Source: Candidatus Thorarchaeota archaeon (GTDB lineage: Archaea; Asgardarchaeota; Thorarchaeia; Thorarchaeales; Thorarchaeaceae). Taken from it: a stretch of DNA of 32,523 nt. Of this stretch, positions 22,588 to 32,523 are shown one piece after another (positions within the stretch are counted from its first letter, which is position 1; the number at the start of each line of letters is the position of its first letter). Both the position numbers and the translations under genes were made by a program. The notes under the pieces were generated by a model that worked only from the letters and a program-made list of their open reading frames with translations, made no database searches and was not told the DNA's origin. The stretch covers positions 1 through 32,523 of the forward strand of contig JAEOUM010000036.1 of NCBI GenBank assembly GCA_016839275.1, given 5' to 3'.

Positions 22588-23259
22588 GTGAGCATCATGG
22601 TGTTGGATAATGATAGATTCCTTAACTCAGAACTAAGTAACATCACTCAGATGTTAGAGGAACATTTCAGGGCAGCGTTAGCTGCCAGTAAGATGGTACA
22701 CAATGCTGTAAATGACTGGCTGGCTGGAGAGAGCAACATTACAGCAGCAGACCTGAAAGCTGTAACAGACCTTGAAGAAAAGGGTGATGACCTGAAGCAC
22801 ACTATACTTACTGAACTAGCAAAAGCAAACACTCTGATGCAACGTGAGGATCTTCTACGCCTGGTACATTATAATGACAAACTAGCTGATGGTGCAGAAT
22901 GGTGCATGTATCATCTAGCAGCAATCGCAGGTTCTTGGCAGCCTGAGGGTGAGCTCAAAGAGAAGATTGCCAAGATGAATGACCATGTGATTGAAGAAAT
23001 AACTCAACAGAGAGAGGCAGTGCGCTTTTTATCCATTAACATGGAGGAATCAATAAAACGAGCAGATGAGATTTGCAAGCTTGAGAAACAGGTGGATGTA
23101 GTCCAGCGAGAGATTGTCACACTCCTCTATCCTGCGAATATACCCATTGCAATTCTCTTAAGATTCCGCGACTTCATCAACATGATGGAAGATATTGCTA
23201 ACTTCGGCGAAGATGCTGCAATCACAATTAGAACTCTCTCACTCACACTAAATATGTGA
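22588..23259 (+). CDS. DUF47/PhoU-like protein
   Basis: 223 residues from GTG (ATG at 22597 is equally likely). It is all-helical, with the DUF47 pattern: an N-terminal L-E-E-H-F-R-A-A-L-A-A-S-K-M, then L-K-A-V-T-D-L-E-E-K-G-D-D-L-K-H (metal-binding E/D motif of PhoU folds), L-V-H-Y-N-D-K-L-A-D-G-A-E-W, a second I-C-K-L-E-K-Q-V-D-V-V-Q-R-E, and a C-terminal F-R-D-F-I-N-M-M-E-D-I-A-N-F-G-E-D-A-A. DUF47 proteins usually regulate or accompany Pit-type phosphate transporters. No pit gene is next to this one. It is divergent from uppP, with a shared promoter gap of about 75-80 bases. Confidence 0.9.
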   Translation: MSIMVLDNDRFLNSELSNITQMLEEHFRAALAASKMVHNAVNDWLAGESNITAADLKAVTDLEEKGDDLKHTILTELAKANTLMQREDLLRLVHYNDKLADGAEWCMYHLAAIAGSWQPEGELKEKIAKMNDHVIEEITQQREAVRFLSINMEESIKRADEICKLEKQVDVVQREIVTLLYPANIPIAILLRFRDFINMMEDIANFGEDAAITIRTLSLTLNM

Positions 23260-23278
23260 TACTAGCTGGTGCCATGTT

Positions 23279-23845
23279 TTGACTGAAAACACCCAAAGGA
23301 TTGCAGTTGCAAGATTAGTTGGTGATAGAGCAATTGTATGGGATCCCGAGGATGGGATGTTCCTATATAATCAAGGTTACTTTGGTCAACCTGTAGGCAT
23401 TCGGAAACCCAAGTCCGCTGTCTTTGACAAACCACTAGAACTCTCGCTTCTTGAGAGCGCATTTCTGACCCGTGAGAAGAAACTCCATGTTCTGGACACG
23501 ACTGGTGACCATATATTGAACCTTGACGAGATTCTGACCCTCGGTCTTAAACGGTCTGAGGAGTTCAAAGATCAATATCTGGTCTACGCACAACTTCGAG
23601 AACGAGGGTATATCGTGCGTCCAGGCTTGAAATTCGGGACTGACTTCGCAGTCTATGAGAAGGGTCCAGGACTGGACCACGCACCTTTCCTAGTACACGT
23701 AATTCCACAGAAGAAAGGAGTCGTACCACTGGACATTGTACGTGCTGGAAGACTCGCCACTAGTGTGAGAAAAAGGTTCATCATTGCCACAGTGAAGTCC
23801 AATGGTGAAATTGCTCACTATTCATTCATCTGGCACCGACCTTAG
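23279..23845 (+). CDS. endA: tRNA-splicing endonuclease (EndA)
   Basis: 188 residues from TTG, with GGTG a few bases upstream. It cuts introns from pre-tRNA at bulge-helix-bulge motifs. The catalytic domain shows K-F-G-T-D-F-A-V-Y-E-K-G-P-G with Y126, H134 in L-D-H-A-P-F-L-V-H, and K165 in S-V-R-K-R-F-I-I-A. This is the Tyr-His-Lys triad of the family with near-standard spacing. The preceding R-E-R-G-Y-I-V-R-P-G is also diagnostic. One catalytic domain of about 180 residues suggests the homotetrameric (alpha4) type or a heteromeric subunit, not the long fused alpha2 type. It lies 19 bases after the DUF47 gene and may be co-transcribed. Confidence 0.92.
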   Translation: MTENTQRIAVARLVGDRAIVWDPEDGMFLYNQGYFGQPVGIRKPKSAVFDKPLELSLLESAFLTREKKLHVLDTTGDHILNLDEILTLGLKRSEEFKDQYLVYAQLRERGYIVRPGLKFGTDFAVYEKGPGLDHAPFLVHVIPQKKGVVPLDIVRAGRLATSVRKRFIIATVKSNGEIAHYSFIWHRP

Positions 23846-23927
23846 CTCTCATACTATCCATGAGCAAAACAAATAAGTTCGCAGACAAGGACATTTGCAT
23901 AACATCTAGCCCCGAGGATGAATCCTG

Positions 23928-24245
23928 ATGGCTGATAAAGCTGAAAACGCAAAGGCTTTTGGCGTGCTGTTAGCAGAAGCCTGGGAGAACACTCCCTCAT
24001 TTATCTGCAGCAACGAGGACTACATTTACTGTATCTATCCAGCTGATGACACTAAGGCTAAGTGGATTGAAGCATCGCTTACGTTTCCTGATGGGTCTTT
24101 GGACAAGAAGGAGATTGATTCTGTAAAGGCGATTGCACTCTTGGTGGAGGAGCTGAAGGTGTTGCCCACGTATGGGGCGGATACAATCGTCACAACTAAG
24201 GCGCAACTCGACGAAGTTGCGAGCCGCTTGGGCACCCTGAAGTAA
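23928..24245 (+). CDS. Unrecognised small soluble protein
   Basis: 105 residues. The GAGGATG upstream of the ATG is a plausible ribosome site. I do not recognise the family. It is acidic and alpha/beta, with two aromatic-rich strands (D-Y-I-Y-C-I-Y-P-A) and a C-terminal pair of helices (A-L-L-V-E-E-L, L-D-E-V-A-S-R-L-G). No signal, membrane helix or metal motif is seen; two cysteines lie at about 27 and 35. It is followed after 59 bases by the zinc-ribbon coiled-coil gene on the same strand. Confidence 0.6.
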   Translation: MADKAENAKAFGVLLAEAWENTPSFICSNEDYIYCIYPADDTKAKWIEASLTFPDGSLDKKEIDSVKAIALLVEELKVLPTYGADTIVTTKAQLDEVASRLGTLK

Positions 24246-24304
24246 GCTGTCAATTGATTTGAGGTCTACTATGGACCGATGGATGATGTGGACGGAGCAG
24301 GAGA

Positions 24305-25102
24305 ATGCCAGAACCTCTGATTGAATGCCCTTTCTGTGGTCACGAAGTTCCTAACGGGAAGTACTGCAATCTCTGCGGAGAATCTCTACCTTCCAGAGGC
24401 GCTAAAGATGAATCCACAACTAACCTAGCTACAGGTTCAGCAGAAATAGAGGAAGAGTCTGCTCCTATTGAACCTCTATCACTCCCTCATTTTGATATAG
24501 TAATACAAGACATGCCCTATGAAACTGCTGTCGTTCTTCTTTCCAGCGCTGAACTCGTGGTTCTTGATGACGAGTTGGATCGCATTATTGGGCAGACCAA
24601 AGCAACCCGCCAAGCGCTTCAGCTTCGACAGGCTGACAAAGAAGTACTGACAGCACGTGCAGAAGTTCTCCGTGAAGAATTTGAACATGCCAAGCAACGG
24701 AAACGTGAACTGACATCCGTGAAAGAAAAACTTGTCCTTGAAACAATCTTGGATGCCCTTGATAAACACGAAGCTCGGCTATCAAAACTAGAAGGAGCTT
24801 CAGGCACTCTTGACAAAGATGTGTACGAAGAACAACGAATAGAAATTCTTCAGACCATCAAGGAACTCCGGAAAAGCCTCAAGGAAGCTATCAAGTTAGG
24901 TAACAAGTGGTCCAAAGGGATCAAGAACACTCTGAAGGCTCTTCAAAAAGAGATGAGTCGACTAGATGCGAAGTTCAAGATTGGGGACCTCTCAAGAGAC
25001 AAATATGAATCTTCAAAGGCGCGGATGGAACGCGGTGTCCGCATTATTGAAGGTGGACAAAAAAGGCTAGATGAACTACTAGAACTTACTAAGAAGAGAT
25101 GA
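24305..25102 (+). CDS. Zinc-ribbon protein with long coiled coil
   Basis: 265 residues; GGAG directly upstream. The N-terminus is a zinc ribbon C8-x2-C11 and C21-x2-C24 (C-P-F-C-G ... Y-C-N-L-C-G). A flexible acidic linker follows (about 30-60), then a hydrophobic strand/helix module (F-D-I-V-I-Q-D-M-P-Y). From about residue 90 to the end it is almost entirely heptad coiled coil, rich in K/E/L with repeated K-E-L-R-K-S-L-K-E-A and R-D-K-Y-E-S-S-K-A-R-M-E-R patterns. Such ribbon-plus-coil proteins are common in Asgard genomes and of unknown function. A scaffold role is inferred. It overlaps the next gene by four bases (ATGA). Confidence 0.78.
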   Translation: MPEPLIECPFCGHEVPNGKYCNLCGESLPSRGAKDESTTNLATGSAEIEEESAPIEPLSLPHFDIVIQDMPYETAVVLLSSAELVVLDDELDRIIGQTKATRQALQLRQADKEVLTARAEVLREEFEHAKQRKRELTSVKEKLVLETILDALDKHEARLSKLEGASGTLDKDVYEEQRIEILQTIKELRKSLKEAIKLGNKWSKGIKNTLKALQKEMSRLDAKFKIGDLSRDKYESSKARMERGVRIIEGGQKRLDELLELTKKR

Positions 25103-25440
25103 AAAGACGAAGAAACATGATCTTGGAGCGAATTGTTATGGCAACAGGTTATGTGGAATGTAATGCACTCTGTAAGAGCTTTAGATGTGAGAAGAAGCCC
25201 CCTGCTATGAAAATCATACAGAAAGGGGGGAAGAAGACAGTATGGTGCACATGGATCGATGAGGAATGCGATGGTGCATGGTGCCAGTTTTCAAAATGTA
25301 TGGAACGCCGGATGACAGACGATGGCAAATGCAAGCCTCCAGCACAAAAGGTGAGCCCTGTGATTGACATGGGACCTGATGATGAATACCCCGATGCGAT
25401 CCCGAAAGATATAGCTAAGAAACTAGGTAGCAAAGTATGA
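25099..25440 (+). CDS. Cysteine-rich protein, possible metal or Fe-S binder
   Basis: Up to 113 residues. The ATG at 25099 overlaps the previous stop (ATGA). An internal ATG at 25138 has GGAG nine bases ahead and may be the true start (100 residues). Eight cysteines: C21, C25, C30, C50, C57, C62, C67, C78 (long-form numbering), in patterns C-x3-C-x4-C and C-x6-C-x4-C-x4-C. The sequence between C50 and C67 holds W-C-T-W-I-D-E-E-C-D-G-A-W-C-Q-F-S-K-C. I do not recognise the family. The regular spacing suggests one or two zinc or iron-sulfur sites, not disulfides, as no signal peptide is present. The C-terminal 30 residues are acidic and proline-rich. Confidence 0.72.
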   Translation: MKRRRNMILERIVMATGYVECNALCKSFRCEKKPPAMKIIQKGGKKTVWCTWIDEECDGAWCQFSKCMERRMTDDGKCKPPAQKVSPVIDMGPDDEYPDAIPKDIAKKLGSKV

Positions 25441-25680: not shown

Positions 25681-26673
25681 TTGACGCGCCTTGATGACAT
25701 TGTTGATTTATTACTCAACTTTGATGGCATCTCGCGTAAGTTCGTCCTTCCATCTATTATTGACAAGTTACGACTGAGTTCCTTCAAGGGAGATACACCT
25801 CATGGCCTCGGAGAGGATTCTGCTGCTATCTTGACAAACTCTAATGATGTTGTCCTTCTTACAACGGATGCTATCGTGGAAGACTTATGTCTTGGTCACC
25901 CTAGAGCTGCTGGATTTAACGCAGTACTCGCAAACATCATGGATATCTACGCAGCAGGTGGTACCCCAACTTCATTTGCTGTTGCATTATCCTACTCCGA
26001 CCCTGAGATTGGAAGTGCGATGCTCGACGGACTGATTGCTGGTTCACACACTTTCAAGATTCCTATTGTGCGAGGGCATACCAATCCTCGCTCATCATCG
26101 ACTTATGTTGTAGGATCTGCCACAGGTACTGTACAGAAGGATGACCTGCTCACTGCTGGCGGAGCCATGGCTAACAATATTCTTGTCCTTCTTTTCGATC
26201 GAAACGGTCAGAGGGGTGCACATTATACTCTTGGTTGGGATTCAGTCACTGACCGCCCCTCTGATGAGATTGTGCACAGATTATCAGTCATGAACATTCT
26301 TGCTGAACAGCACCTTCTCACTGCATCAAAAGATGTTTCCGTGGCTGGCATTGTGGGAACCGCCGTCATGATGCTAGAGTATTCTGGGAAGGGTGGTACA
26401 CTCTTCCTAGATGAGATCGAGAAGTCAAGACCATCAGAAATCCCGTTAGAAGACTGGCTCAGAATGTATATCTCTCTGGGTTTTCTTGTCGCTACATCGA
26501 AAGAGAACTACTCGAAGCTAGAACATATTGCAAGGGATCACTCTCTGTCTCCCTGTATAATTGGAGTTGTTGATAATTCAAGAGAAATCAAGCTAGCTCT
26601 TGAAGGAGAGGAGCGTATAGTCTTTGATTTCACCAAAGGACCAGTACTCACTCCAAAGAATGACCACGAATGA
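25681..26673 (+). CDS. AIR-synthase-related protein (PurM/ThiL/HypE superfamily, Sll0787 or methanogenesis-marker-2-like)
   Basis: 330 residues from TTG, with GGAGTGA six bases ahead. The superfamily makes acyl-phosphate or ATP-activated intermediates (PurM, ThiL, HypE, SelD). Seen: H-G-L-G-E-D-S-A-A-I near 41-50 (the 'G-x-D-A/S-A' ATP/metal strand), L-L-T-T-D-A-I-V-E-D at 59-68, A-A-G-F-N-A-V-L-A-N-I-M-D-I-Y-A-A-G-G, P-I-V-R-G-H-T-N-P, and S-K-D-V-S-V-A-G-I-V-G-T-A-V-M-M-L-E. The pattern is closest to the Sll0787/marker-2 subgroup as I recall it. It is not SelD: the N-terminal Cys/Sec-containing glycine loop is absent. The exact substrate is unknown. Confidence 0.8.
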   Translation: MTRLDDIVDLLLNFDGISRKFVLPSIIDKLRLSSFKGDTPHGLGEDSAAILTNSNDVVLLTTDAIVEDLCLGHPRAAGFNAVLANIMDIYAAGGTPTSFAVALSYSDPEIGSAMLDGLIAGSHTFKIPIVRGHTNPRSSSTYVVGSATGTVQKDDLLTAGGAMANNILVLLFDRNGQRGAHYTLGWDSVTDRPSDEIVHRLSVMNILAEQHLLTASKDVSVAGIVGTAVMMLEYSGKGGTLFLDEIEKSRPSEIPLEDWLRMYISLGFLVATSKENYSKLEHIARDHSLSPCIIGVVDNSREIKLALEGEERIVFDFTKGPVLTPKNDHE

Positions 26674-26944
26674 CACCTGCGTTAGCGTTATATTGTCTAA
26701 CTACTCGTTGACTACCGAAGTGTCTCAGGTGTCGTCTACAAAGGAATGCAGTATTGTCGGTTGCAGAAAGGAATCGAAGAGATCTTTTGCAACGGTGAGA
26801 ATCATGGAAAGCATTACCAACTCAGGTCTTAAGGTAAAGGATGCTCGAGCAAGGAAAATCTATGTCTGTGCGGATCACTGGAAAACAGTAAAGAAGGCGT
26901 TCAAGAAAGAAACAAAACCTGAGCGGCTCCGCTGGGGTCATTAA
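26660..26944 (+). CDS. Small zinc-finger-like protein (C-x4-C ... C-x2-H)
   Basis: 94 residues from the ATG at 26660, which overlaps the end of the AIR-synthase-like gene by 14 bases. A later start (valine codons near 26720) is possible, because conservation probably begins at E-C-S-I. One likely metal site: C30-x4-C35 and C70-x2-H73. The region between is a helix/strand pair, and the basic C-terminus (K-K-A-F-K-K-E-T-K-P-E-R-L-R-W) could contact nucleic acid or ribosome. I have an impression of similar short proteins in Asgard genomes but no named function. Confidence 0.6.
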   Translation: MTTNDTCVSVILSNYSLTTEVSQVSSTKECSIVGCRKESKRSFATVRIMESITNSGLKVKDARARKIYVCADHWKTVKKAFKKETKPERLRWGH

Positions 26945-26999: not shown

Positions 27000-27359
27000 A
27001 TGCCCACGAAGAAAGGTACTGAACATGGTCTAAGGCCAAATTACAAATTATGGTTTGAAACGAATGGTGAGTATATCTTTGGTCCTGGAGCATGTGCTAT
27101 CTTAATTGCTGTCCTTGAGGAGGGCACATTGACTAAGGGCGCTGAAAGGCTCGGCATGTCATACCGCTATGCGTGGGGCGTAATCAGAAAAATCGAAAAG
27201 AAACTAGGCACTCGGCTCATTGAGACCTACAAGGGTGGAAAAGTAGGCGGGGGTGGAGCCAGAGTGACTGAACAGGGATTGAAGTTCATAAAAGCCTATT
27301 CTGAACTACGCGAAGCTTTTGAGGGCGTCTTGAGAAAGACTGGCTCACTTAATCTATGA
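27000..27359 (+). CDS. ModE-like N-terminal HTH regulator without molybdate domain
   Basis: 119 residues from the ATG at 27000; a TTG frame to 26955 is less likely. It matches the winged helix of ModE: L-R-P-N-Y-K-L-W-F-E-T-N-G-E, F-G-P-G-A-C-A-I-L, E-E-G-T-L-T-K-G-A-E-R-L-G-M-S-Y-R-Y-A-W, then I-E-K-K-L-G-T-R-L-I and G-G-G-G-A-R-V-T-E-Q-G. Full ModE binds molybdate through C-terminal MopI domains, which are absent; single-domain archaeal homologs exist and may sense differently or not bind metal. It fits the MobA/Hdr theme. The stop overlaps the end of the convergent NapH-like gene by six bases. Confidence 0.88.
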   Translation: MPTKKGTEHGLRPNYKLWFETNGEYIFGPGACAILIAVLEEGTLTKGAERLGMSYRYAWGVIRKIEKKLGTRLIETYKGGKVGGGGARVTEQGLKFIKAYSELREAFEGVLRKTGSLNL

Positions 27360-28415
27360 GAAACGAATTACTATTGCATCGTTCGGGCAATGGCTCTTGC
27401 AATCTAAGCACATGATGCAGTCTGGACTGTGCATGTGTTGGTATGGATATTTCCTGATTCGGATATTCATTGGACATACGACTTCACAGACGTTGCATGT
27501 ATCTGGTGTGCACCGTGCTGGATTTCTACCAATTCCTATCAACGCTTCTCTTGAAAAGACACTGTACAGCCATCCTGCTGGGCAAAGCCACCTGCAGAAC
27601 CATCTCGGAACCCATACGGAAACCAAGAATACAAAGACAACAAATGCAAGCTGTAGAAGCGCAGTTCCCCACTGGGTAATATACCAAAGTGTACCTATGC
27701 TATTAGGCCAGAGTCCTGCATCCTGGAGGCCTGGCAATATCTTGAACAGAATGTATGCTGGATTCAGAGGTGCAAAGGCATCAGAGGCAAATACACCAAG
27801 AATCGCTTCAAGCGTCTCTTCTCCACCTGCTACCCGGCTGACTCCTAACCATACTGCAAGTCCAGTTACAATGACTAGGATATAGAATTTGAACTTTCTC
27901 AACTCTGTTTCCGTTGAAGCTGATGGTCTGGTCTTCGTTCGTTTTGGTAGGGTCACAAAGTCTTGAATTGTCCCTATTGGACAGATCCATCCACATGGCG
28001 CTCTGCCAATGAAAATCAGAATAATGATCATAGAGCCAATTGTAAAGAATGGGAACAGACCTGTTGTGAAGGTTCGCTGCATTGTATCAAACGAGCCTGC
28101 AATAACTGCAAAAGGTGCCTCCAATGGAGAAAGTATTGGTATGCTAGGCATAATATCCCTTATAGCTATCCAAAAGGCTGTGATGTACTCTGCACCAAAC
28201 CACGCCGTAAATATGTAGGCATTGATACCTAGTAAGAAAATAATCTGAACCACCCTGCGAAGCATACGAAGATTGAAGAGCATTCCTAGTGGATTCCTTC
28301 TGGGTTTCTTTTCCTTCTTCTTTTCACTAATTTCAGGTTTCTTAACCGGTTCTTCTGATTCGGGAATTTCCTCTTCCTCGCCCGTTTCTTCAAGCCTTTC
28401 GGCATCTTCAGCCAT
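27354..28415 (-). CDS. NapH/MauN-like membrane polyferredoxin
   Basis: 353 residues; GAGG nine bases ahead of the ATG. An acidic/lysine-rich cytoplasmic N-terminus (about 1-42) is followed by about four or five transmembrane helices (near 52-72, 120-137, 176-192, 252-270). Two characteristic C-x3-C-P loops flank them: C141-G-W-I-C145-P-I-G and C274-R-W-L-C278-P-A-G. Two C-terminal [4Fe-4S] clusters are C302-x4-C307-x2-C310-x3-C314-P and C333-x2-C336-x2-C339-x3-C343-P. The family (NapH, MauN, CcoG-like) moves electrons between the membrane or quinone and soluble partners. The first C-terminal motif has an enlarged C-x4-C spacing. No other nap gene is adjacent. It may accept electrons from the ferredoxin pool or Hdr complex (inference). 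Confidence 0.88.
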   Translation of the reverse strand: MAEDAERLEETGEEEEIPESEEPVKKPEISEKKKEKKPRRNPLGMLFNLRMLRRVVQIIFLLGINAYIFTAWFGAEYITAFWIAIRDIMPSIPILSPLEAPFAVIAGSFDTMQRTFTTGLFPFFTIGSMIIILIFIGRAPCGWICPIGTIQDFVTLPKRTKTRPSASTETELRKFKFYILVIVTGLAVWLGVSRVAGGEETLEAILGVFASDAFAPLNPAYILFKILPGLQDAGLWPNSIGTLWYITQWGTALLQLAFVVFVFLVSVWVPRWFCRWLCPAGWLYSVFSREALIGIGRNPARCTPDTCNVCEVVCPMNIRIRKYPYQHMHSPDCIMCLDCKSHCPNDAIVIRFS

Positions 28416-28930: not shown

Positions 28931-29028
28931 ACATATCTCTCCTACATTCCACCACATAAACTACTCTGATTTCGTTTTGTAATGACCAAGGGTTTATGTT
29001 CTCTTTGCACTGTGTCTTGCAGAGAGAT

Positions 29029-30426
29029 ATGATGGACTCACTACTCCCTGTTCATGTTGGTCTGATGGGTCATATCGACCATGGAAAAACTGCATTAGCT
29101 CGGGCATTGAGTGAACAGGTTTCTACTGCTGGACTTGATAAACATCCCCAAGCGCAGCAACGCGGTATCACCATTGATCTCGGATTCACAATGTTCGCGC
29201 TTGATAAGTACCTAGTGACGTTGGTTGACGCCCCAGGTCACGCTGATCTAATTAGAAGTGTTGTTGCCGGTGCAAACATAATAGATTCTGCTATTTTGAC
29301 TGTGGCAGCAGATGAGGGTCCTAAGGTCCAGACCGGTGAGCATTTGGTGGTTCTTTCTTCACTAGGTATTGACTCCGTTGTGGTTGCTATTACTAAGATC
29401 GATAGTGTGAGTAATCAACAAGCTGACAATGTTGAAACTCGGATGAGAAGTGTGATTGAGGATACTGGTTTCAAAAACGTGGCGTTTGTTCAGGTGTCCG
29501 CTCATAGAGGAGTAGGTATTGACAAGTTACGTAAAGCCCTTCTCAGTGTACTTGTCCCTAGAGTCCGTGATAAGGATAGTCCTTTTCTAATGCCTATTGA
29601 TCACAGTTTCCCGATTAAAGGACATGGCACCGTGACAACTGGTACGATACTTCGGGGAAAAGTTGCGCAAGGAGATTTGATTGAAATCGCTCCACTTGGT
29701 GTGAGTAGTAGAGCCCGTTCCATTCAGACCTTTAGCCAAAATCGGGCTGACGCAGCAGCAGGAGATCGTGTCGGAATCAATATTCCTGAGGTTGAGCACT
29801 CACTGATTACTCGCGGTAATTATCTATGTTCTCCTAAGAGCGTCCCTTCCTCTGATTGTCTTATTGTTCATATTGCCACAAATCCATTATATCGTGGAAA
29901 AATAACAAAGAAAATGGTTGTGAGTGTTGCTTTGGGCATGCCGGTTCTAACAGGACAGATTATCCCCTTTCAGCTGGAAAAAGGTCTTCGAGTTGTAATG
30001 GATTCGATTGATGAGGATGAGTTTGATGCAGCTCTAGTACTACAGCAATCTGCGGCTATAGATGTACAAGCTAAGATTCTACTTCTGAGGACAGACCTAC
30101 CTCCTACTCAGATGAGGATTATAGGGTCTGGCACAATTTCTGAAATTCCAGATAGTATTCTTTTGCACAAGAGAAGGTCCCGCACGGGCAAAGTCCAACG
30201 CATTCGAGATGGAGACATTCTTGTTGAAGGACTCGCTTCTAGTAAGAAGGCTGCGGAGCAGTTGATAGGCTTTCAAGCGAGGACCAGAAGTGGAGTAGAC
30301 GGAATTATTAAGGCATCATTTGGAACAAGAGGCGTCGTTTCCGTAGAGTTTGATACTCCAATAGGAGATAATGAAGAAGTCGTCTATGAGCGGTTTATAG
30401 AGGAGGAGTATAACTTTGGACCATGA
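29029..30426 (+). CDS. selB: Selenocysteine-specific elongation factor SelB (aSelB/EFsec)
   Basis: 465 residues from the first of tandem ATGs (29029, 29032); the frame opens at 28996, but no homology supports the extension. SelB is the GTPase that brings Sec-tRNA to in-frame UGA codons. Translation-factor motifs: G1 G-H-I-D-H-G-K-T, Q-R-G-I-T-I-D-L-G-F (switch I; the I-T-I-D-L-G-F pattern is typical of SelB, in place of the I-T-I-x-x-A-x of EF-Tu), D-A-P-G-H, T-K-I-D, and S-A-H-R-G-V-G-I. K-G-H-G-T-V-T-T-G-T starts domain II. The short domain IV at the C-terminus matches archaeal/eukaryotic SelB and lacks bacterial winged helices. Its stop overlaps the sepSecS start. Confidence 0.95.
   Translation: MMDSLLPVHVGLMGHIDHGKTALARALSEQVSTAGLDKHPQAQQRGITIDLGFTMFALDKYLVTLVDAPGHADLIRSVVAGANIIDSAILTVAADEGPKVQTGEHLVVLSSLGIDSVVVAITKIDSVSNQQADNVETRMRSVIEDTGFKNVAFVQVSAHRGVGIDKLRKALLSVLVPRVRDKDSPFLMPIDHSFPIKGHGTVTTGTILRGKVAQGDLIEIAPLGVSSRARSIQTFSQNRADAAAGDRVGINIPEVEHSLITRGNYLCSPKSVPSSDCLIVHIATNPLYRGKITKKMVVSVALGMPVLTGQIIPFQLEKGLRVVMDSIDEDEFDAALVLQQSAAIDVQAKILLLRTDLPPTQMRIIGSGTISEIPDSILLHKRRSRTGKVQRIRDGDILVEGLASSKKAAEQLIGFQARTRSGVDGIIKASFGTRGVVSVEFDTPIGDNEEVVYERFIEEEYNFGP
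30402..30408 (+). promoter_or_regulatory. Shine-Dalgarno site of sepSecS (TTG start)
   Basis: GGAGGAG within the last codons of selB, seven bases before TTG at 30416. It shows translational coupling. Confidence 0.7.
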
Positions 30427-31735
30427 TGAGATTGACAGGATCTTGGACAAAACAATTCCCGAAAGCATTGCGCGCCGAGGTCGAACAACTATTGATGCTC
30501 TGATGGCTCCGATTAGGGATGTTTTGAATCGACGTGTTTTCCCAGACAAATCAATGACAGATTCGCAGCTAGAGTTACTAGTCCAGATTCTCTCGTCAAT
30601 GGACACCGATAAGGATCCAGAAGCTGCACGAGTAGGTGAACGTGAAGCTCGAATCGCGTCGCCATTCATCGGTACCCTTTCAGCAGGTTTCAATCATGGA
30701 ATTGGAAGAAGTGGTCAACTTGATGCACCTCAACCGAAGGCCGCTGGCGCTACTCTGATGCAGCAGATTGCCAATACCATTGCACTTGATGCTATTCGAA
30801 AGCTCGGATTAAGTAATGTGAAATCTGGTATTGTAACTCCACTGTCTACAGGAATGACACTTGGTCTTGTACTAGGGGCTATGCGGAGAGAGTTGCATGT
30901 TCAGAGAGTGCTATACCCTCGAATTGATCACCTCTCACCCCGGCGAGGAATTGCTCTGAGTGGACTAGAGGAGGTGCGGGTATCAACATTGATAGAAGAT
31001 GATGCTGTCAGAGTCGATATGGGTGATTTAGAGAAGCACATTTCCAAGACCAAGTCCTCTGCAGTCTTATCTACTTCAACCTTCTTTCCACCAAGAGAGT
31101 CTGATCCCATCAAGGCAATTGCACGACTTTGTGCGGACAATGATACCCCTCACATTGTCAATAATGCCTATGGTGTTCAATCACAGGAAGTCATGGCACA
31201 ACTACGGTCTGCTATTGATGCTGGTCGTGTTGATGCAGTTGTCCAAAGTAGTGACAAGAACTTCATGGCTCCAGTAGGAGGTTCTATTGTAGTTTCTCCG
31301 AAACCAAATATCATTGAATGGACAGCTGATACTTATGCAGGTCGAGCTTCAGCAGCTCCCGTAGTACAGACACTGTCGGCTCTTCTGGCGCTAGGTCTTG
31401 ATAGGTATAAGGTCCTCCAAAAACAACAGGTAGAGAATCTTGCACTTCTCAAAGAGCACCTTCAAAAAGTTGCTGACAATCATGAGCAACGAATTCTTGA
31501 TGTCAAAAATCCTGTAGCCTATGCTATAACCATGAACGGACTTGATGTTAACGAGATTGGAGCTCGGCTCTATAATGCTCGAGTCACTGGTCCAAGGGCT
31601 ATTGATGCTGGAGCTTTCGGCTCTTCTGTTGATAAATATCCTCATAGCTATATTGTGATGAATGCAGCGATTGGAGTGAGCCCTGAAGATGTTGTGACTG
31701 CGACAACCAAACTTGATAAGGAAGCTGGCAGATAA
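30416..31735 (+). CDS. sepSecS: O-phosphoseryl-tRNA(Sec) selenium transferase (SepSecS)
   Basis: 439 residues from TTG, overlapping selB by 11 bases. A PLP enzyme that converts Sep-tRNA-Sec to Sec-tRNA-Sec with selenophosphate. Hallmarks: G-I-G-R-S-G at 95-100 followed by Q-P-K-A-A-G (phosphate/substrate loop, nearly identical to the human protein), P-L-S-T-G-M-T-L near 142-149, N-N-A-Y-G-V-Q near 249, and the Schiff-base lysine K281 in Q-S-S-D-K-N-F-M-A-P-V-G-G. Length matches archaeal members. Its presence means Sec is made by the archaeal/eukaryotic two-step route, so PSTK and selenophosphate synthetase must be encoded elsewhere. Confidence 0.96.
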   Translation: MDHDEIDRILDKTIPESIARRGRTTIDALMAPIRDVLNRRVFPDKSMTDSQLELLVQILSSMDTDKDPEAARVGEREARIASPFIGTLSAGFNHGIGRSGQLDAPQPKAAGATLMQQIANTIALDAIRKLGLSNVKSGIVTPLSTGMTLGLVLGAMRRELHVQRVLYPRIDHLSPRRGIALSGLEEVRVSTLIEDDAVRVDMGDLEKHISKTKSSAVLSTSTFFPPRESDPIKAIARLCADNDTPHIVNNAYGVQSQEVMAQLRSAIDAGRVDAVVQSSDKNFMAPVGGSIVVSPKPNIIEWTADTYAGRASAAPVVQTLSALLALGLDRYKVLQKQQVENLALLKEHLQKVADNHEQRILDVKNPVAYAITMNGLDVNEIGARLYNARVTGPRAIDAGAFGSSVDKYPHSYIVMNAAIGVSPEDVVTATTKLDKEAGR

Positions 31736-31764: not shown

Positions 31765-32418
31765 ATGACCGCAGCAGAAGAACAAGCAAAGGTTTCTCGA
31801 ACTATAAAATACAGCTCCGAAGAGGCTGCAGCAGTGTTTCGCATTGCTTGGTATATGATAGCCTCTAAGCCTAATGTTCTCCTTGAAGAATATAGTGAGG
31901 GCGAAGGTCAAGAATTCAGTGGCACAGCTCGCTTCTCTCTAAAGATCGCAGGAGAAGATGCTATGGCAGCAATTCGTCTAGACGGTGCACAATCATCATT
32001 GGAGATTGATACAGCAGGTATGGATGAAGTAGCACTTGGAGCGTACGTAAATGGCTTCATTGACTCAATCAAGGATGCTATTAACAAATACCAATCCCTA
32101 CCAGAAGAGGATCGTGGGCGTCTTCGGAGAGCGTTGATGGCAAAGAGCTGCTGGGACCGTATGGTTCGTGAGATTCTGAACAAGGCTCCTATGACTAATA
32201 TCTACTATCAAATAGCTCACGGAAGAGAGATGATAATTAAGGCACTTGAGGGCGATCCTGGTGTGTATCCAATCACTCTGACAACCTCTGCTTGGTTATC
32301 ACAAATAGAAACACATCCCAAGGATGAAACCCTTCCAGGATTTGTTGCCTCTGAACTGGCTAAGAAAAGCGTTGAGTGGAAACGGGAAACTCAAGAAATC
32401 ATCAGCCGTTACATTTAG
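31765..32418 (+). CDS. Unrecognised 217-residue protein in the selenocysteine cluster
   Basis: 217 residues; GGGAG upstream of the ATG and 29 bases after sepSecS, so almost certainly co-transcribed. I do not recognise the family. It has an N-terminal helix (E-E-A-A-A-V-F-R-I-A-W-Y-M-I-A), a strand-rich middle (about 35-85), and a helical C-terminal half with basic patches (R-G-R-L-R-R-A-L-M-A-K; H-G-R-E-M-I-I-K; A-K-K-S-V-E-W-K-R). One cysteine (C129), no zinc ribbon, no P-loop. It is therefore not PSTK, and it shows no SelD glycine loop. It lies between sepSecS and the tRNA-Sec gene, so a role in Sec synthesis or decoding, such as an RNA-binding factor, is a reasonable guess but not shown. 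Confidence 0.8.
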   Translation: MTAAEEQAKVSRTIKYSSEEAAAVFRIAWYMIASKPNVLLEEYSEGEGQEFSGTARFSLKIAGEDAMAAIRLDGAQSSLEIDTAGMDEVALGAYVNGFIDSIKDAINKYQSLPEEDRGRLRRALMAKSCWDRMVREILNKAPMTNIYYQIAHGREMIIKALEGDPGVYPITLTTSAWLSQIETHPKDETLPGFVASELAKKSVEWKRETQEIISRYI

Positions 32419-32461: not shown

Positions 32462-32523
32462 GGCCTTCTACAGAGCTAGTGGTCTGGCTCCGTGGGCTTC
32501 AAACCCATGATCGTGCAAGCGAT
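32462..32523 (+). tRNA. selC: Selenocysteine tRNA (tRNA-Sec, anticodon UCA), 3' part beyond the window
   Basis: Predicted 5' strand of a 9-base acceptor, GGCCTTCTA, starts at 32462. Two linking bases (CA) follow. The D arm is 7 pairs with a 4-base loop: GAGCTAG / TGGT / CTGGCTC (32473-32490). The anticodon arm is 6 pairs around the loop CTTCAAA (32491-32509), with anticodon TCA at 32499-32501. A variable arm ATCGT / GCAA / GCGAT (32510-32523) then reaches the window end. A 7-pair D stem with 4-base loop is the archaeal tRNA-Sec type; a 6-pair anticodon stem and long variable arm are general tRNA-Sec features. The T arm and acceptor 3' strand are outside the window. It lies 43 bases after the unknown gene of the Sec cluster. 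Confidence 0.88.

Follow-up and report, generated by a model that had tools for sequence, protein, structure and literature searches.

The protein encoded at positions 31765 to 32418 of the Thorarchaeota contig analysed here (the window, 32,523 nucleotides in all) is a member of the Asgard-specific family Sel_Asgard, and we tentatively favor reading it as a two-domain adaptor that likely serves the SepSecS step in archaea that use selenocysteine (Sec) and that would also have a Sec-independent role, with partners that we infer from gene order and fold. The original prediction had presented it as a candidate new Sec factor, possibly the missing link from the SECIS element to SelB. The Sec association and the Asgard-specific occurrence both hold up, whereas the novelty does not (NCBIfam NF045535; PMC11227280). 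The SECIS-to-SelB link is disfavored by retention of the gene in Sec-less families, by its absence from the Sec user M. jannaschii, by a fold typical of interaction modules and by the acidity of the protein.

The locus and the family

The gene order at the Thorarchaeota locus is selB-sepSecS-ORF-tRNA-Sec, with the following features.

28996 to 30426, + strand: selB (aEFSec, Sec-specific elongation factor); TIGR00475 at 295 bits, cut-off 242; aSelB_III
30416 to 31735, + strand: sepSecS (O-phosphoseryl-tRNA(Sec) selenium transferase); TIGR03531 at 452 bits; PF05889 at E 1e-111
31765 to 32418, + strand: Sel_Asgard (NF045535) gene, 217 aa, ATG start; from NCBIfam, AlphaFold, VIA-align and alignment
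32462 to 32523, + strand: tRNA-Sec(UCA), 5' part, 62 nt; truncated RF01852 match, gene cut by the contig end

The shared operon with selB and sepSecS that had been proposed is confirmed by Pfam and NCBIfam, as both genes score above the cut-offs of curated models; the two overlap at ATGA, and sepSecS is the conserved gene immediately 5' of the Sel_Asgard gene. The ORF itself is also real. Specifically, its reading frame is intact, a Shine-Dalgarno-like GAGGGAG lies immediately 5' of it, homologs occur throughout the Asgard phylum, and a comparison of two Thorarchaeota relatives (dN 0.034, dS 0.43) indicates purifying selection. It does directly precede tRNA-Sec, as had been claimed. The 62-nt tRNA-Sec fragment gives a 3'-cut, sub-threshold RF01852 match and is identical at 60 of 62 positions to the tRNA-Sec of a close relative (G007), with no call by ARAGORN on this truncated gene.

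The protein matches NF045535 with 219.7 bits (cut-off 132), residues 19-214 aligning with positions 3-195 of the 195-position model, and the earlier view that it is neither PSTK nor SelD is supported. This family carries the name Sel_Asgard, 'putative selenocysteine system protein', with no stated mechanism, and in Thorarchaeota relatives its members likewise lie beside Sec machinery genes. Single-sequence searches of Pfam, PDB sequences and viral contigs returned nothing usable, and family searches with the protein and its relatives gave no significant match to an RNA-binding family. Huang et al. (2024, ISME J, PMC11227280) describe an Asgard-exclusive hypothetical protein (e.g. MBD3157761.1) that is often encoded in the vicinity of secS, efSec and pstk, and propose that it is potentially associated with Sec; this protein is presumably Sel_Asgard. 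The ORF is thus not an unrecognised gene, being a clear member of NF045535 with a Sec link that was flagged in 2024. What is new here is the structural and evolutionary reading of the family, which argues against a SECIS-to-SelB mechanism; the passages of PMC11227280 concerning the Asgard-only protein do not report its fold, its invariant motif or its retention without Sec.

Further upstream, the window contains several genes that recur near Sel_Asgard in other lineages.

23928 to 24245, + strand: 105-aa protein, synteny marker; conserved Asgard cluster, common to Sec-less lineages
24305 to 25102, + strand: Zn-ribbon coiled-coil protein, synteny marker
25681 to 26673, + strand: AIR-synthase/SelD-superfamily (AIRS-like) protein; nearest NCBIfam models below cut-off
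26726 to 26944, + strand: KCS, small C-x4-C...C-x2-H protein; adjoins Sel_Asgard in Hermod and in families f3, f12 and f29
27354 to 28415, - strand: Fer4_5 (NapH-like) membrane protein, synteny marker; adjoins Sel_Asgard in Hermod

The cluster at 22588-25440 (DUF47, tRNA-splicing endonuclease, 105-aa protein, Zn-ribbon coiled-coil protein, Cys-rich protein) is kept near the Sel_Asgard locus from Odin-like f3 to Thor, and neither its 105-aa nor its Cys-rich protein matches a Pfam family. The AIRS-like protein, whose nearest NCBIfam models are methanogenesis marker 2 and sll0787, is encoded next to Sec genes in Thor, Frey, f16, f26 and f27. It was rejected as a Sec-specific SelD relative, as it is widespread without Sec and occurs also in Hermod and f12, at sites other than this locus. 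KCS is lysine-rich, is widespread in Asgard (with copies at loci including L068, L070, L072 and L076) and has no Pfam family above cut-off; its distribution is broader than that of Sel_Asgard, which excludes it as an obligate partner.

Gene order and occurrence across Asgard archaea

SepSecS lies directly upstream of Sel_Asgard on the same strand in all 113 cases where both are on one contig, covering eight family-level groups, and the distance is at most 1.2 kb in 111 of these. The matches in f24 and f27, which are stand-alone C-half or weak matches, are not beside Sec genes. SelB is found just 5' of SepSecS in f1, f11, f16, f26 and f5; in f2 it lies at a distance of about 6 kb, mostly in inverted orientation. 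In f18 no contig is shared with SelB, and 26-300 kb separate tRNA-Sec from Sel_Asgard, and yet SepSecS adjoins the latter in 6 of 6 cases; the same adjacency persists in Loki, where the remaining cluster is likewise dispersed. In f1 tRNA-Sec is located 3' of Sel_Asgard, within 1.2 kb in 33 of 34 cases (median 59 bp from the profile match), and in f26 it is close on the opposite strand; outside these two families it is not beside Sel_Asgard. Overall, SepSecS is the most durable gene partner of Sel_Asgard, while SelB and tRNA-Sec drift away. Note that genes with no evident Sec role (UppP, DUF47, EndA and those for the 105-aa and Zn-ribbon coiled-coil proteins) are also near Sel_Asgard across classes. 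This neighborhood rearranges slowly, so linkage is weaker evidence here than it usually is.

NF045535 scores above cut-off in 126 of 227 Asgard genomes. A Sel-clade protein occurs in 12 of 13 Sec-using families versus 3 of 16 families without Sec (Fisher p = 1.2e-4, with families that are not independent of each other and with f4, f5, f12, f24, f27 and f28 scored on sub-cut-off or partial matches). Among the Sec users, f24, f27 and f28 are represented only by a stand-alone C-half or by a weak, partial match, and f13, which has SepSecS and SelB and no Sel_Asgard homolog, is a true exception. Several Sec-using f1 and f2 genomes without Sel_Asgard have a SepSecS gene cut at a contig edge (G033, G138, G140), and the sole Sec-using f16 genome (G103) has a listed contamination of 12%. 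None of 14 control genomes, including that of Sec-using M. jannaschii, contains Sel_Asgard.

The expectation that the gene would occur only in genomes that encode Sec was thus borne out as strong co-occurrence but not as exclusivity, so that the refuting observation named beforehand, homologs that are common where Sec is lacking, applies in part. Sel_Asgard is present in 8 of 8 Hermod (f9) genomes, in Odin-like f3 (G048) and in f12, with Hermod and f3 copies above the NF045535 cut-off, and in these three families none of SelB, SepSecS, PSTK and tRNA-Sec was found above cut-off. The best tRNA-Sec-like match in f9 scores 45.3 bits, lies in Hermod genome G097 and is a tRNA-Arg according to ARAGORN. 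Statements in PMC11227280 agree, in that clades other than its listed Sec users appear to be without Sec. The Hermod, f3 and f12 copies reside in the same gene cluster as in Sec users, with the Hermod order essentially that of Thor, except that the Sec genes and a small number of further genes are missing. They also fall in the Sel clade of the tree and keep all of the invariant residues given below, and those of Hermod are under purifying selection as judged by the sole unsaturated Hermod pair (dN 0.027, dS 0.42). The simplest reading is that Sec was lost from these families and that Sel_Asgard stayed, which would make its core function independent of Sec.

Predicted fold and domain relatives

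The AlphaFold model of Sel_Asgard, built from an alignment of 30 window and locus sequences (pLDDT 93.3, pTM 0.89), has an N-terminal domain (residues 8-111) with a beta-alpha-beta4-alpha, helix-grip or platform-like fold and a C-terminal four-helix bundle (residues about 112-214). The helical nature of the C-terminal half had been predicted correctly. The basic patches for RNA that had been ascribed to it do not stand up, given a pI of 5.1, a net charge of +1 for this half (-8 for the N-half) and a charge that is not conserved, with pI values across the family of 4.7 to 9.2. Invariant residues of the alignment are F25, D131, Y147, R154 and E155.

Among 1000 re-aligned chains, the top VIA-align match of the C-domain is the C-terminal domain of ESCRT-I Vps28 (2j9w_A; Z 13.3, rmsd 2.4, 100 of 101 residues), although four-helix bundles match easily and a Z of 13 is by itself no proof. 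For this reason an independent profile test was applied. In hhalign the C-half scored 93.8% against Asgard Vps28 C-terminal domains and at most 0.2% against its controls, namely the Vps28 N-terminal part and the unrelated helical DUF47; all controls for either half were at or below 2.7%. Sel_Asgard does not behave as a Vps28 subunit, with 0.2% for its halves against the Vps28 N-terminal part and with Pfam VPS28 not among the best 25 of 28 families for 23 Sel_Asgard members. Vps28 shares the four-helix fold and has an N-terminal steadiness-box hairpin where Sel_Asgard has the helix-grip domain, and the Y-x6-RE motif is specific to Sel_Asgard, not being found in the paralog and Vps28 sequences compared.

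The N-domain modelled alone (pLDDT 92.4) matches the AP2 beta-appendage platform in Foldseek (prob 1.00, E 0.01) and 1e42 at Z 9.1, in both cases tied with other helix-grip families, and the METTL16 VCR is among its fold matches; Sel_Asgard has no Ig ear. As structure alone gives a several-way tie, the putative platform assignment rests partly on the architecture of the following paralogs.

L061:2929-5295(-), L062:680-3061(+) and L170-L179: ~790-aa paralogs, Loki-type f2 and f18
L063:1666-3513(+): 615-aa paralog, f29

NF045535 weakly matches the C-terminus of these ~790-aa Loki proteins. They have a Cys/His-rich N-terminus, then tandem winged helices matching PCI, UFL1 and DDRGK, a weak adaptin-ear (GAE-like) match, and a C-terminus that reaches about the Pfam cut-off for VPS28. 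In hhalign the Sel_Asgard N-half scored 97.0% against the N-half of their terminal region and the C-half scored 85.5% against the paralogs, and in the tree all 31 Sel_Asgard rows are split from them with a support of 100/100. An mBio survey of ESCRT proteins from 2024 (PMC10936438), the text of which does not contain the word selenocysteine, reports that many Asgard proteins pair an adaptin appendage (IG plus TBP-fold) with a Vps28 C-terminal domain. In such proteins and in the ~790-aa paralogs the two C-terminal domains have the same order as in Sel_Asgard, which lacks their Zn finger, winged helices and Ig ear. On the basis of the paralog alignments and these published architectures, Sel_Asgard is best read as a short appendage-platform plus Vps28-C protein. 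A profile search and structure prediction have placed it in a family named for the Sec system but with a fold of protein-interaction modules.

Two side observations concern these domains. The ~790-aa paralogs combine PCI/UFL1/DDRGK winged helices, a platform-like domain and a Vps28-C bundle in one protein, and may connect UFM1-ligase-type modules with those of adaptin appendages and of ESCRT-I. In addition, Sec-using lineages contain stand-alone Sel_Asgard C-halves of ~120-130 aa that have Y-x6-RE and are encoded away from Sec genes.

L064:2320-2721(+): stand-alone C-half protein
L065:5487-5885(-): stand-alone C-half protein
L078:9778-10140(-): stand-alone C-half protein

Loki genomes also have a full-length Vps28-type gene on the strand that carries Sel_Asgard, at a distance of about 7-8 kb.

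G104:C2:179368-179973: Vps28-type gene near Sel_Asgard
G118:C57:19168-19707: Vps28-type gene near Sel_Asgard
G112:C41:165597-166181: Vps28-type gene near Sel_Asgard

Proposed roles within and beyond Sec metabolism

In the reading that we tentatively favor, Sel_Asgard would be a small adaptor with kinship to the Asgard proteins of the appendage plus Vps28-C family, in which an adaptin-appendage-type helix-grip domain is followed by a Vps28-C-like bundle. By analogy with Vps28-C domains and appendage platforms it would act by binding proteins. In Sec-using Asgard it would most likely bind proteins of Sec-tRNA synthesis, with SepSecS as the prime candidate, and may scaffold or regulate that step. 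A second, Sec-independent client is also proposed, because lineages that appear to have lost Sec keep the gene.

An alternative, which we regard as a real possibility, is that Sel_Asgard is a Sec-independent adaptor of housekeeping or trafficking type and that its gene adjoins the Sec genes only by virtue of a conserved Asgard cluster. Three Sec-less families keep the gene, its synteny and its invariant motif (in Hermod under purifying selection), the cluster includes genes with no evident Sec role, the domain relatives are ESCRT-type proteins, and a Vps28 gene is nearby in Loki. However, this alternative does not account well for the strong co-occurrence with Sec or for a SepSecS adjacency that survives in f18 and Loki despite dispersal of the cluster. 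At the other extreme, an ESCRT/adaptin-type adaptor may have been recruited as an essential Asgard-specific scaffold that ties together SepSecS, Sec-tRNA and SelB and does part of the work of SBP2 and SECp43, which we consider unlikely. The likeness to these eukaryotic proteins is at most one of role, as accessory Sec factors, with no relation in sequence or fold seen in the present analysis.

A dedicated role for Sel_Asgard as a reader of SECIS or tRNA-Sec is unlikely because the gene is kept without Sec, is absent from M. jannaschii and encodes an acidic protein. For an SBP2-like factor that would bind to Asgard SECIS elements and recruit SelB at the ribosome, which is improbable, one can cite the operon with selB, the fact that some helix-grip domains (such as METTL16 VCR) bind RNA, and the difference between Asgard and methanogen SECIS elements, a lokiarchaeal SECIS having been reported as non-functional in Methanococcus maripaludis (PMC11881835). 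These points are countered by the three Sec-less families, by the lack of a conserved charge or of a significant RNA-binding family match, and by a linkage to SelB that is looser than that to SepSecS. Finally, a tRNA-Sec chaperone or SECp43-like partner of the SepSecS-tRNA-Sec complex is very improbable, as the SepSecS adjacency, the proximity of tRNA-Sec in f1 and the resemblance of the N-domain to tRNA-bound Pcc1 of KEOPS (Z 9.1, 26% identity over 74 residues) are offset by close tRNA-Sec linkage being limited to f1 and f26, by retention of Sel_Asgard without tRNA-Sec, and by an hhalign score against Asgard Pcc1 of 0.8%, on which an identity with Pcc1 was rejected.

To our knowledge the link between the SECIS signal and SelB in archaea is not established, and it is in Asgard archaea that SECIS elements of a eukaryote-like kind appear. 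Of the accessory genes, Sel_Asgard has the firmest link to the Sec operon, and it should not be called an archaeal SBP2. Its adaptor-type relation to Vps28-C proteins and its survival beyond Sec in three families instead turn a 'candidate factor' into testable options, those of a SepSecS partner or a Sec-independent adaptor.
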